From assembly GCF_003367905.1 (NCBI RefSeq), contig NZ_CP029462.1:1984001-2048000 (forward strand): a stretch of DNA of 64,000 nt. Reading direction: 5' to 3'. The stretch is from Megasphaera stantonii. GTDB taxonomy: Bacteria; Bacillota; Negativicutes; Veillonellales; Megasphaeraceae. This document shows, piece by piece, positions 3,077 through 38,834 of this stretch (the first letter of the stretch is position 1; each line of letters begins with the position of its first letter). The notes beneath the pieces were generated by a model. It had not been told where the DNA came from, did no database searches, and saw only the letters and a program-made list of their open reading frames with translations. The position numbers and the translations under genes are program-made.

Positions 3077-3153
3077 GGCGGGTATGGTGAAGCGGTCAAC
3101 ACGGCGGATTGTGGCTCCGTTACGCAAGGGTTCGAATCCCTTTACTCGCCCCA
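3077..3153 (+). tRNA. tRNA-His (anticodon GTG)
   Basis: A full cloverleaf can be drawn. The acceptor stem has 8 pairs, counting the extra G(-1):C73 pair that marks bacterial histidine tRNAs. The seven-base anticodon loop is TTGTGGC and the T-arm contains GGTTCGAATCC. The CCA end is encoded. It is the first of three closely spaced tRNA genes that probably share one transcript. Confidence 0.95.
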
Positions 3154-3154
3154 T

Positions 3155-3229
3155 AGGGGTATAGCCAAGTGGTAAGGCACCGGACTTTGACTCCGCTATG
3201 CGCTGGTTCGAATCCAGCTACCCCTGCCA
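3155..3229 (+). tRNA. tRNA-Gln (anticodon TTG)
   Basis: The acceptor stem AGGGGTA pairs with TACCCCT, G is the discriminator base and CCA is encoded. The anticodon loop CTTTGAC gives anticodon TTG, which reads CAA. It starts two bases after the CCA of tRNA-His, so processing from a common precursor is likely. Confidence 0.95.
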
Positions 3230-3234
3230 GCCAT

Positions 3235-3310
3235 GATTCACTAGCTCAGTCGGTAGAGCACCTGACTTTTAATCAGGGTGTCCCGAGTTCGAATCTCGGG
3301 TGAATCACCA
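3235..3310 (+). tRNA. tRNA-Lys (anticodon TTT)
   Basis: The acceptor stem GATTCAC pairs with GTGAATC, A is the discriminator base and CCA is encoded. The anticodon loop CTTTTAA gives TTT. It is the last gene of the cluster and is followed at once by a terminator hairpin. Confidence 0.95.
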
Positions 3311-27100: not shown

Positions 27101-28291
27101 ATGTCTGAAAAGATTGTACAGCTTAACGAGGAAGTAATCAAGGGACAGCTCAAGGATCTTGTGCGTGGCAGCGTAGAGGAGACTCTCAACGAGCTGCTGG
27201 AGGCCGAGGCAGAGAAACTGACTCAGGCGGCCCGATACGAGCGCAATGAGAAGCGTCAGGGCTATCGCAGCGGCCACTACAGGCGCAGCCTCACTACCAC
27301 TTCCGGGGACGTTACCCTCAAGGTACCCAAGCTCAAAGGGATTTCCTTTGAGACCGCCATTATTGAGCGGTATCGCCGCCGTGAAAGCAGCGTAGAAGAA
27401 GCCCTCATCGAGATGTATCTGGCCGGTGTATCCGTCCGGCGTGTGGAAGACATTACAGAGGCGCTGTGGGGCAGCAAAGTGTCGCCCTCAACCATCAGTG
27501 AACTGAATAAGAAGGCATATGTCCACATTGAGGATTGGCGTAACCGCCCCTTACAGGGAGGGCATTACCCGTATGTCTATGTGGACGGCATCTACTTGCG
27601 TCGCAACTGGGGCGGAGAGTTTGAGAATGTGGCCATTCTGGTAGCGATTGCGGTAAATGAAGATGGATACCGTGAGGTTCTTGGGGCTGCCGAGGGCATG
27701 AAGGAGGACAAGGCTAGCTGGGTCAGCTTCTTTCAATGGCTGCGAGGCCGGGGCCTGGATGGAGTTAAACTGGTAGTTGGCGACAAGTGCCTGGGTATGC
27801 TGGAAGCTGTAGGAGAAGTGTTTCCAGAGGCCAAGTACCAGCGGTGTACTGTACACTTTTACCGCAATATCTTCTCTGTAACGCCTCGTTCCAAGGTGAA
27901 GCTGGTGGCCAAAATGCTCAAAGCGATCCATGCGCAGGAGAGCAAGAAAGCTGCCCGTGAGAAAGCCCGGGCCGTGGTAGAAGAACTGCGTTCCATGAAA
28001 CTGAAAGAGGCTGCCAAGAAGGTGGAGGATGGCATTGAGGAAACGCTGACTTACTGCGATTTTCCCTGTGAACATTGGACCCGTATCCGTACTAATAACG
28101 TCATGGAACGGCTTAACCGGGAGATCCGCCGCCGTACCCGTGTGGTGGGCAGCTTCCCGGACGGCAACTCCGCCCTCATGCTGGTCTGTGCCCGGCTGCG
28201 CCATGTGGCCGGTACCCAGTGGGGCAACAAGAAGTACATGAACATGAAGCACCTACAGGCGGCTCTGGAGGATACCTCCATTGCTGGGTGA
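27101..28291 (+). CDS. IS256-family transposase
   Basis: 396 residues, a DDE transposase of the mutator-like type. The likely catalytic residues are the D of YVYVDGIYL, the D of VVGDKCLGM followed by CTVHFYRN, and the E of TNNVMERLNREIRRR, all in family-typical contexts. The N-terminal part is helical and DNA-binding. The frame is intact from ATG to stop, with GAAAGGAG before the start, so the protein is probably functional. Codon usage is less GC-biased at third positions than in the neighbouring housekeeping genes, consistent with a mobile origin. Confidence 0.96.
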   Translation: MSEKIVQLNEEVIKGQLKDLVRGSVEETLNELLEAEAEKLTQAARYERNEKRQGYRSGHYRRSLTTTSGDVTLKVPKLKGISFETAIIERYRRRESSVEEALIEMYLAGVSVRRVEDITEALWGSKVSPSTISELNKKAYVHIEDWRNRPLQGGHYPYVYVDGIYLRRNWGGEFENVAILVAIAVNEDGYREVLGAAEGMKEDKASWVSFFQWLRGRGLDGVKLVVGDKCLGMLEAVGEVFPEAKYQRCTVHFYRNIFSVTPRSKVKLVAKMLKAIHAQESKKAAREKARAVVEELRSMKLKEAAKKVEDGIEETLTYCDFPCEHWTRIRTNNVMERLNREIRRRTRVVGSFPDGNSALMLVCARLRHVAGTQWGNKKYMNMKHLQAALEDTSIAG

Positions 28292-28345
28292 CTTCACTCA
28301 TATCAGGGCCTGCAAACCATTTTGCGAAAAATACTTGACACTACC

Positions 28346-28353
28346 ATTTTTAA
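28346..28353. repeat. Target-site duplication, right copy
   Basis: An exact copy of ATTTTTAA at 26991-26998, directly after the right inverted repeat. Confidence 0.85.
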
Positions 28354-28584: not shown

Positions 28585-28613
28585 TTGAATATTAGAATAT
28601 ATGATGATATAAT
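28585..28613 (+). promoter_or_regulatory. Promoter of the rnf leader and operon
   Basis: TTGAAT (28585-28590), a 17-nt spacer and consensus TATAAT (28608-28613). Transcription would start near 28620, about 345 bases before the rnfC start codon. Confidence 0.65.
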
Positions 28614-28619
28614 ATAGGC

Positions 28620-28966
28620 GATTGAAAGTATGTCTCGGAAATGAAGCGGACTTTCTTTCGATTTATTTTTTCTAGTCAGCCGGCTTATGCAGAAGGAAAA
28701 CGATGGGATAAACCGGCTGCAACGCATGCTTGTATCAAATGCCTTTGCAGGGCGGGTACGAAAACGCGTGAAGGGAGCACCCTTGGACATGCGGCGTAGT
28801 GTCGTCGGAATCTGGCCGGCAGCACTGCGGCGGCAGCGGCCTGTACGGCGGCGCAGTCGGCAGGAACAGGCGCGCGCAGGCTGCAGCGCAGCTGGGGCGC
28901 CGCGTATCCGAAATAGTTGCTTCATGTTTTTATTATTTTCATTATATATTAATGAGGTGATTTTTG
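28620..28966 (+). ncRNA. Long GC-rich structured leader of the rnf operon (unassigned)
   Basis: A stretch of about 345 bases between a good promoter and rnfC carries no convincing protein frame. It switches sharply from AT-rich to GC-rich at about 28675. Several stems are visible: CAGCCGG (28677-28683) with CCGGCTG (28713-28719); CTGCAA (28717-28722) with TTGCAG (28745-28750), enclosing GCAT/ATGC; and a GCGGCGC/GCGCCGC pair further down. The first two share three bases and exclude each other. I do not recognise a known riboswitch, T-box, RNase P, 6S or SRP RNA signature. It may be an unknown riboswitch or regulatory leader, or simply a degenerate remnant. Confidence 0.4.
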
Positions 28967-30310
28967 ATGTTGAATACCTTTAAAAGAGGTGGGGTTCATC
29001 CTGATGATGGCAAAATCTACGCTAAGGATAAAGCCATTGAAACCCCGGCAGTACCGGATCAAGTAGTCATCCCTATGAGCCAGCATTTTGGTGCTCCTTG
29101 TACTCCGACAGTCAAGGTTGGCGACCTGGTAAAAAAAGGCCAGGTTATTGGGACCAGCGATGCCTTCCTGCATGCTGACATCCACGCTTCTACGTCCGGT
29201 AAAGTCGTCAAGGTAGCTCCGATGCCGCATAATATGATGGTCAAATGCATGGCTGTCGTTATTGAGGCAGACGGCAAAGACGAATGGGTAGAAGGTCTTC
29301 CGGCAGAACACGACTGGAAGCAGCTCGATAGCAAGGAAATCGTTGAATTGATTAAAAAGGCCGGCGTAGTAGGCTGCGGCGGCGCTACGTTCCCTGCTCA
29401 TGTAAAATTGACGCCGAACAAACCTGTCGACACCTTTATCGTAAACGGCGCCGAATGCGAACCGTATCTGACCTGCGACTACCGCGCCATGGTCGAAAAA
29501 GAAACGACGGAAAAACTCGTAACGGGCGTGCAGATCTGCATGAAGGCTCTCGGCGTAAAACAGGGCTTCATCGGCATTGAAGACAACAAGCCGGAAGCGA
29601 TTAAGAACATGACGGAAGCTTTCAAGGATATCCCTGAAGTTACGGTCGTAACCTGCAAGACGAAATACCCGCAGGGCGCTGAAAAAATGATGATTGAAGC
29701 CTGCACGGGCCGTCAGGTCGAACCGGGCGGATTGCCGATGAACGTCGGCTGCGTCGTAAGCAACGTCGGTACGGTCATTGCGATTGCCGACGCCGTATGC
29801 CACGAAATCCCCTTCATCGAACGCTTGACGACGGTTACGGGCGACTGCATCAAAGAACCGAAGAACCTGTCCCTGCGTATCGGTACGACCTTCCAGGAAG
29901 CTATCGATTACTGCGGCGGCTTTTCTCAGCAGCCGGACCGCATTATTGCCGGCGGCCCGATGATGGGTCTTGCCCAGTACCAGCTTGATGTTCCTATTAC
30001 AAAAGGCGCTTCCGGTATCCTCGCCTTGTCTCCGGAAAAATGCCAGGTCGGCGAAGAAGAATCGTGCATCCGCTGCGGCCGCTGCGTCACCGCCTGTCCG
30101 ATGGGTTTGGTTCCGAGCCAGCTGAGCATCTTCGCTTCTTGCCAGGCATGGGATAAGTGCATGGAATACGGTGTCATGAACTGCGTCGAATGCGGCAGCT
30201 GCGTATACACTTGCCCGGCAAAACGCAACATCGTCCAGTATATCCGCAATGCAAAAGCTCAGTGCAAAGCCATTCAGGCAGCCGCTCAGGCTAAGGCACA
30301 GAAGGCTTAA
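28967..30310 (+). CDS. rnfC: Ion-translocating ferredoxin:NAD+ oxidoreductase subunit RnfC
   Basis: 447 residues from the ATG at 28967, with GAGGTG seven bases upstream. It is the peripheral cytoplasmic subunit that binds NADH and FMN. Order: an N-terminal barrel-sandwich domain, the nucleotide-binding Rossmann-like core with GGGGATFPxHVK-like GCGGATFPAHVKL and NGAECEPYL, an SLBB segment, and two [4Fe-4S] motifs near the C-terminus, CIRCGRCVTACP (about 367) and CVECGSCVYTCP (about 406). It is a short, Clostridium-type RnfC without the long C-terminal repeat extension of some proteobacteria. First gene of rnfCDGEAB. Confidence 0.97.
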   Translation: MLNTFKRGGVHPDDGKIYAKDKAIETPAVPDQVVIPMSQHFGAPCTPTVKVGDLVKKGQVIGTSDAFLHADIHASTSGKVVKVAPMPHNMMVKCMAVVIEADGKDEWVEGLPAEHDWKQLDSKEIVELIKKAGVVGCGGATFPAHVKLTPNKPVDTFIVNGAECEPYLTCDYRAMVEKETTEKLVTGVQICMKALGVKQGFIGIEDNKPEAIKNMTEAFKDIPEVTVVTCKTKYPQGAEKMMIEACTGRQVEPGGLPMNVGCVVSNVGTVIAIADAVCHEIPFIERLTTVTGDCIKEPKNLSLRIGTTFQEAIDYCGGFSQQPDRIIAGGPMMGLAQYQLDVPITKGASGILALSPEKCQVGEEESCIRCGRCVTACPMGLVPSQLSIFASCQAWDKCMEYGVMNCVECGSCVYTCPAKRNIVQYIRNAKAQCKAIQAAAQAKAQKA

Positions 30311-37374: not shown

Positions 37375-38592
37375 TCAGCGCAGGTGGGGAAGAATATGTC
37401 CCATCTTATGCTTTTTCGTTTCCAAATAGAATTCGTCGAATTCCTGGGGTTTCATTTCAATCGGCACGCGTTCTACGATTTCTACGCCGAAGCCTTCGAG
37501 GCCGTAGATTTTTTCCGGGTTGTTCGTCAGCAGGCGCAGTTCTTTGGCTCCTAAATCCTGCAGAATCTGAGCGCCAATCCAATATTCGCGCAGGTCTGGC
37601 GCAAAGCCCAGCTTTTCATTGGCTTCTACGGTGTCATAGCCCTGTTCCTGGAGGACGTAGGCCTTCAGCTTGTTGATGAGGCCGATGCCCCGGCCTTCCT
37701 GGCGCATGTAGAGGAGAATGCCCCGGCCTTCGGCGTTGATCTGGGTCATGGCAGCGGCCAGCTGTTCGCCGCAGTCGCAGCGGCACGAGCCGAATACGTC
37801 GCCGGTCAGGCATTCGGAGTGGACGCGGCAGAGCAGGTTTTTACCGTCGCCGATGTCGCCTTTGACGAGGGCGACGTGGTGTTCGCCCGTCAGGTCGTTG
37901 ACGTAGCCGTAAATTTTGAATTCGCCGAATTTCGTCGGCATCTTAGCGACGGCTTCGCGGACGACGTGCTTGTCGTGACGGCGGCAGTAGTTCTGCAGGT
38001 CGTGAATGGTGATGAATTTTAAATTGTACTTGTCGGCCAATTCCCATAGCTGCGGCGTCTGCATCATCGTGCCGTCGTCGGCCATGATTTCGCAGCACAA
38101 GCCGACTTGCTTCAGGCCGGCGAGGCGCATGAGGTCGACCGTCGCTTCCGTATGGCCGTTGCGGGCCAGGACTCCGCCGCGCTTGGCGATTAAGGGGAAG
38201 TTATGGCCGGGACGGCGGAAGTCTTCGGGACGGGCCGTTTCTTCCGTGCATTTGCGGGCCGTCAGCGCCCGTTCTACGGCGGAAATGCCCGTCGTCGTAT
38301 CGACGTGGTCGATGGAGACGGTGAAGGCCGTTTCGTGATTGTCCATATTGTCGCTTACCATCGGCGGCAAGCCGAGCTTGCGGGCGTATTCAATGCTCAT
38401 GGGCATGCAGATGAGGCCCTTGCCGTGCGTTGCCATAAAGTTCATGTTTTCTGTCGTGCAGTACTGGGCGGCGCAGATAAAGTCGCCTTCATTTTCTCTA
38501 TCCGGGTCGTCGGTGACGATGATGATATGCCCGGCTTGCAATTCTTCGATTGCTTCTTCTACGGTATTGAATTTTCTGTTTTCCTTTGCCAC
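37375..38592 (-). CDS. ribBA: Bifunctional 3,4-dihydroxy-2-butanone-4-phosphate synthase / GTP cyclohydrolase II
   Basis: 405 residues carrying the two entry steps of riboflavin synthesis. The N-terminal RibB domain (about 1-205) has [11 protein letters not shown]; the C-terminal RibA domain has the zinc site [18 protein letters not shown] and [10 protein letters not shown]. The start is a GTG at 38592, set by AGGAGG eight bases upstream. An FMN riboswitch and a hairpin lie in its leader. No ribD, ribE or ribH follows, so the rest of the pathway is elsewhere or flavin is partly imported. It supplies FMN for Rnf and the flavodiiron protein. Confidence 0.96.
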
Positions 38593-38655: not shown

Positions 38656-38693
38656 TCAACACAACACAAGCTGCGCGGAGGCAGCTCCATCGT

Positions 38694-38816
38694 ATCTTCT
38701 TCCATCCAGACTATACTGTCGGTTTTGGAATCGCACCAAATCACGAGCACATGGCTCCTACGCCGTAGCGTTCGCGGACTATACCGCCGATCGGGAATTT
38801 CACCCTGCCCTGAAGA
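38694..38816 (-). promoter_or_regulatory. FMN riboswitch (RFN element) upstream of ribBA
   Basis: On the minus strand the conserved RFN blocks appear in order: CTTCAGGGCAGGGTGAAATT, then CCGATCGGCGGTATAGTCCG, a variable arm, then GATTTGGTGCGATTCC, AAAACCGACAGTATAGTC and TGGATGGAAGAAGAT. The opening CTTC pairs with the closing GAAG. It turns off ribBA when FMN is plentiful. Confidence 0.95.
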
Positions 38817-38834
38817 TATATGACTACATGAATC

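Follow-up and report, generated by a model that had tools for sequence, protein, structure and literature searches.

What is the long stretch, approximately 345 nt, that separates the promoter of the rnf operon from its first gene in Megasphaera stantonii? An earlier sequence-only reading regarded it as an unassigned structured leader and imagined a sensor of redox, flavin, or Na+ state in front of the main ion pump. Here, we examined this stretch within the window (the whole 64,000-nt piece of DNA analysed) and compared it with the corresponding loci of related genomes.

The rnf locus and its leader

The genome is a single contig of 2.65 Mb, and its rnf cluster has the order rnfC, D, G, E, A, B plus an ApbE-like gene. 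The features of the locus used below are as follows.

28585–28613, plus strand: promoter of the (rseC-)rnf operon, TTGAAT-17-TATAAT with an extended −10 (TG before the −10), from sequence
28623–28632, plus strand: 5′ box UGAAAGUAUG, left strand of the putative stem P0, adjoining the promoter and conserved in most of the genus
28633–28771, plus strand: unconserved front of the leader, where M. paucivorans has the first two thirds of rseC
28772–28916, plus strand: putative rseC remnant (3′ third of the gene) that contains P1 and P2, from the span of the RNA model and homology
28783–28797, plus strand: predicted left strand of helix P1 (UUGGACA, CGGCGU), from the A3 fold and pair counts
28799–28825, plus strand: predicted hairpin P2 (GUGU-c-GUCGG, loop, CCGGC-a-GCAC), from the A3 fold
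28898–28911, plus strand: predicted right strand of P1 (CGCCG, UAUCCGA), from the A3 fold and pair counts
28923–28932, plus strand: 3′ box CAUGUUUUUA, right strand of P0, within the conserved AU-rich sequence that precedes the ribosome-binding site
28954–28960, plus strand: rnfC ribosome-binding site GAGGTGA, from sequence, kept across the genus
28967–30310, plus strand: rnfC, first gene of rnfCDGEAB (TIGR01945, 3.5e−160)

The near-consensus promoter pointed out by the sequence-only reading proved to be a genus-wide feature, because it was recognisable, together with the rnfC ribosome-binding region, in all 16 Megasphaeraceae rnf loci that were read. With a conserved promoter upstream and a conserved translation start region downstream, the stretch is placed as a transcribed leader would be. 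The absence of a convincing reading frame was likewise borne out: no credible protein was found in 28620–28966 on either strand, and the small ORFs of the leader matched no family. No intrinsic-terminator-like site was found in the same interval. A repeat search of the genome detected no second copy of the leader, the only recurring sequence being the adjacent insertion sequence (IS) end, and a plasmid search with the leader gave no match. That IS belongs to the IS256 family; its transposase gene lies between pyrG and the rnf promoter (27101–28347), some 230 bp separate the element from the promoter downstream of it, and its right end, which is also present at three other genomic sites, carries an outward TTGACA.

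States of rseC at the rnf locus

Comparison of the 16 Megasphaeraceae rnf loci, including that of the window, distinguished three states. In M. paucivorans (G015), the 539 nt between the shared promoter and the rnfC region consist of a complete rseC gene, the encoded protein matching RseC_MucC (PF04246) with an E-value of 7.6e−23. Ten loci, that of the window among them, have approximately 260–400 nt of intervening sequence. In the remaining five species (G002, G006, G007, G010, and G011), the promoter is followed immediately by the ribosome-binding region, and only 54 nt separate the −10 from the end of the conserved spacer; these five form one clade in the RnfC tree with moderate support (89/87), and the endpoints of the deletion, relative to G012, fall within TTC direct repeats. 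M. massiliensis is one of the species with the deletion.

Several of the intermediate loci retain rseC to different degrees. In Marseille-P2974 (G004), the C-terminal third alone is still in frame; its last 49 codons remain (VSTPLGYDIVQSEFIGGITAF...VSLL*, to the homologous stop) and were found by a profile of 45 RseC proteins with an E-value of 3e−7. When the translated leaders were searched with this profile, only G015 and G004 gave matches. In M. cerevisiae, two further species, and this genome, the remnant is no longer readable as protein; in the translated frames of the window leader, no RseC was detectable, and thus no open frame that fits the family profile with its cysteine motif.

At the DNA level, the rnf-linked rseC of G015 was matched by the leaders of G004 (Z 33), G012 (Z 11), and G001 (Z 6.6). 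The window leader matched it only weakly (Z 3.5, with 4 of 500 shuffles equally good) but matched the leaders of G012 and G004 with Z values of 6.9 and 6.5, respectively. Its assignment to rseC, which is made by sequence comparison, is therefore probable through these intermediates rather than through the weak direct match. The match was specific to the rnf-linked gene, as the other rseC paralogs were clearly matched by the G004 leader only. No clear rseC homology was detected in the leaders of G014, G003, G008, G009, and G005.

In contrast to the low GC around it, the interior of the leader is GC-rich: as the sequence-only reading had noticed, GC rises abruptly from approximately 0.36 to 0.75 at 28800–28899 and then falls to 0.31. 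The remnant leaders of other species have a GC of 0.40–0.46 over their length, and many of the differences between the GC-peak segment of the window and the homologous segment of G012 are changes from A/T to G/C. This peak of 75% is not accounted for by the decay of rseC and counts against the interpretation of the leader as a fossil gene.

More broadly, rseC was found directly before rnfC in 27 of the 30 best-scoring Negativicutes rseC loci, and the same order has been published for Clostridium ljungdahlii, C. autoethanogenum, C. carboxidovorans, and C. kluyveri (PMC9124969). Taken together, these two observations make an ancestral rseC–rnfC order the simplest explanation, and the Megasphaera leaders would then represent stages of rseC loss. 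The rseC gene of C. ljungdahlii, which likewise lies directly before rnfC and belongs to the same family as the intact gene of M. paucivorans, is intact, is reported as a separate transcript, and is needed for autotrophy (PMC9124969), whereas the gene in the window appears to have decayed to an untranslated leader. This genome has three other genes of the rseC family (at 612693, 1617774, and 1726782), and for this reason the rnf-linked copy may have been dispensable. Among the papers searched, none treats rseC, rnfC, and Megasphaera together. Multiple rseC paralogs away from rnf occur in individual Megasphaera genomes (e.g., G014:C1:407154, L080); the cysteine motif is altered in some of them (YVACSACFG), and one G014 copy is without it.

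RNA structure in the leader

The proposal of a switch had started from two stems, and both are present in the window: CAGCCGG (28677–28683) with CCGGCTG (28713–28719), and CTGCAA (28717–28722) with TTGCAG (28745–28750), the latter sharing CTG with CCGGCTG, so that the two would exclude each other. Such stems are nevertheless expected by chance, because the leader contains two perfect 7-nt arms where dinucleotide shuffles give 1.6 ± 1.7, and nine perfect 6-nt arms where they give 5.9 ± 3.1. Moreover, they are not conserved; both lie in the leader front (28633–28771), and the 5′ half of the leader alignment showed no conserved structure (Z −0.3). By eye, CAGTCGG/CCGATTG in G001 is a possible counterpart of the first stem, in this same 5′ half where the alignment gives no signal.

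The folding energy of the window leader taken singly was also ordinary. Its Z values ranged from −1.6 to −2.6, comparable with those of rnfC coding DNA (−2.4) and of DNA upstream of the promoter (−2.6), and lay inside the background of the window, which had a mean of −0.73 (sd 1.28) and in which 15% of the tiles reached −2 or lower. The leader interiors (mean −1.87) were similar to the controls (−1.55 and −1.60). Because the background was similar, single-sequence fold energy was dropped as evidence of structure. Among other leaders, those of G003, G008, and G009 (L051, L052, and L053; approximately 320–340 nt) had low fold energies for their composition, with Z values down to −4.9 in G009, and their alignment gave a Z of −2.4, compared with +1.5 for the reverse complement.

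A different picture emerged from the alignments. The 3′ parts of six leaders were aligned by sequence without regard to structure (alignment A3), and the consensus fold contained a long-range helix (P1) and a hairpin (P2), and in the latter, G004, G012, and G015 share the position of a mismatch. In A3, 84% of the pairs were standard, compared with 23–56% when the strands were slid, and four pairs showed double changes, three of which, from A-U to G-C, lie in the P1 core of the window. The consensus energy of the A3 region had a Z of −5.1 against column shuffles (reverse complement, +0.3), a value that is optimistic because the limits of the region were set once P1 was known; when each species was left out in turn, Z ranged from −2.9 to −6.0. 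The whole-leader alignment of five species provides the fairer figure, a Z of −3.4 (reverse complement, −1.4), whereas 20 alignments of rnf coding sequence taken as controls had a mean Z of −0.41 (±1.0) and a minimum of −1.99. Neither half of the leader tested alone and none of the three-species subsets of A3 reached significance. The energies of the P1 duplex were ordinary in G001, G004, and G015. When P1 strands were swapped among species, own pairs were better overall, with 13 of 5,040 permutations equally good, in a statistic that ignores relatedness and whose result was driven by G000 (this genome), G012, G013, and G014.

The consensus folds of both the five-species set and the separate set of G003, G008, and G009 contained a further stem, P0, which pairs the 5′ box GAUUGAAAG with the bases just before the ribosome-binding region and thereby closes the leader. 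In the deletion species (L042 and alike), the two strands of P0 are almost flush, and a 10-bp hairpin is possible. The description of the stretch as structured may hold at the level of the alignments, in which structure exceeded that of column shuffles, but does not extend to the fold of the single sequence or to the two stems originally named. Some RNA structure appears to have been retained in the rseC remnants, as judged from few sequences and from a region chosen post hoc.

The 28772–28916 segment was used in an RNA model (R1), which spans this interval by construction, since the window sequence is in the model. In a search of 61 genomes, the model found no convincing copy before any other gene. 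The weaker matches within the family were mostly rseC genes themselves, and weak whole-genome matches fell on intact rseC paralogs in G000, G006, G009, G014, and G015. In the rseC–rnfC loci of other Negativicutes, no credible match to the model was obtained.

Origin and possible role of the leader

The most probable interpretation (a probability of roughly 0.85) is that the stretch is a remnant of rseC, once the first gene of an rseC–rnfCDGEAB operon, which now forms an untranslated 5′ leader whose fold may survive in some species, most likely with a passive role, if any. This interpretation builds on the observed homology to rseC, the gene order, the stepwise loss, and the excess of conserved structure in the alignments. 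On this view, the sequences on either side of rseC, namely the promoter and the AU-rich region with the rnfC ribosome-binding site, would have stayed conserved, whereas rseC itself lost its front and can no longer be read in frame. Transcription from the operon promoter, with a start probably near it, would most likely yield an untranslated leader made of the gene remnant, and translation of rnfC would begin at a conserved AU-rich start region of its own. The surviving fold would comprise the closing stem P0, the helix P1, and the hairpin P2. From their position, we infer a stabilising role that would be passive, with the 5′ end kept paired and the AU-rich start region left free. Hairpins of the ompA/aprE type act as 5′ stabilisers of bacterial mRNAs. 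The rnf leader resembles them in that its stem closes a few bases from the presumed 5′ end; P0 differs from them in consisting mostly of A-U and G-U pairs, and is only a candidate for such a role.

How much of this fold matters is judged differently by three related explanations. That the remnant is functionless, the fold signal is chance, and only the promoter and ribosome-binding region matter has a little less than an even chance of being right: the leader diverges about as fast as synonymous sites do (75% identity with gaps between the G012 and G013 leaders, against 67% at rnfC third positions), its full deletion is tolerated, and the interiors fold no better than the controls, although structure at the alignment level above both shuffles and controls is not expected under it. 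A stronger version of the preferred interpretation, that an RNA element was present over the 3′ end of rseC before the decay and was retained by selection afterwards, for example for rnfC translation or mRNA stability, seems rather unlikely. It would explain why P1 and P2 can form on the intact rseC of M. paucivorans too, why double changes occur in the P1 core of the window, and why the alignment Z values exceed those of the coding controls; however, these signals come from few sequences and a region chosen post hoc, the element would have been wholly lost in one clade, and the other Negativicutes rseC–rnfC loci gave no match. It is also unlikely that the decayed gene persists as a leader RNA in which the fold over the rseC end survives with compensatory changes and tunes rnf expression. 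If it were true, the change of a pseudogene into a cis-acting regulatory RNA would be seen here at successive stages within one genus.

Control of rnf by a ligand-sensing riboswitch or a redox, flavin, or Na+ sensor is very improbable. Its position before the main ion pump and some conserved structure across leaders would suit it, but neither gathering nor permissive thresholds gave a credible Rfam match for the rnf leader, which agrees with the earlier failure to match it to a known riboswitch. A terminator, a strongly conserved unpaired aptamer core across species in the leader alignments, and convincing copies before other genes in the 61 genomes are all absent, and the interior is deleted in five congeneric species with intact rnfC. 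The ligand-sensing switch is thus without positive support. Even less credible is that an IS- or MITE-like mobile element has inserted into the leader; the IS256-family end upstream of the promoter and the five species without the stretch might suggest one, whereas the stretch occurs once in the genome, has rseC homology at the same place, and exists in diverged versions in other species.

If the leader is indeed a remnant of rseC, a candidate riboswitch is replaced by a history, namely the loss of the rnf accessory gene rseC from the operon within Megasphaera, from intact to deleted. Long unexplained leaders before conserved operons can thus be fossil first genes, a possibility worth checking before a new RNA is proposed. 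Were the surviving fold functional, the genus would document, step by step, how a coding sequence becomes a leader RNA.

Other RNA features were noticed during these searches. An Rfam match of the leader to FTX_5 (E-value 0.48) was rejected, as it was based on sequence only and fell far under the gathering score of that family. Three tRNA genes are clustered at 3078–3307 of the window. The FMN riboswitch (RF00050) is the kind of flavin sensor that had been imagined for the rnf leader, and although the leader has no match to this family, the window does contain a member of it (113.9 bits, 38690–38821, minus strand), upstream of a ribBA-like ORF (37375–38592, minus strand).
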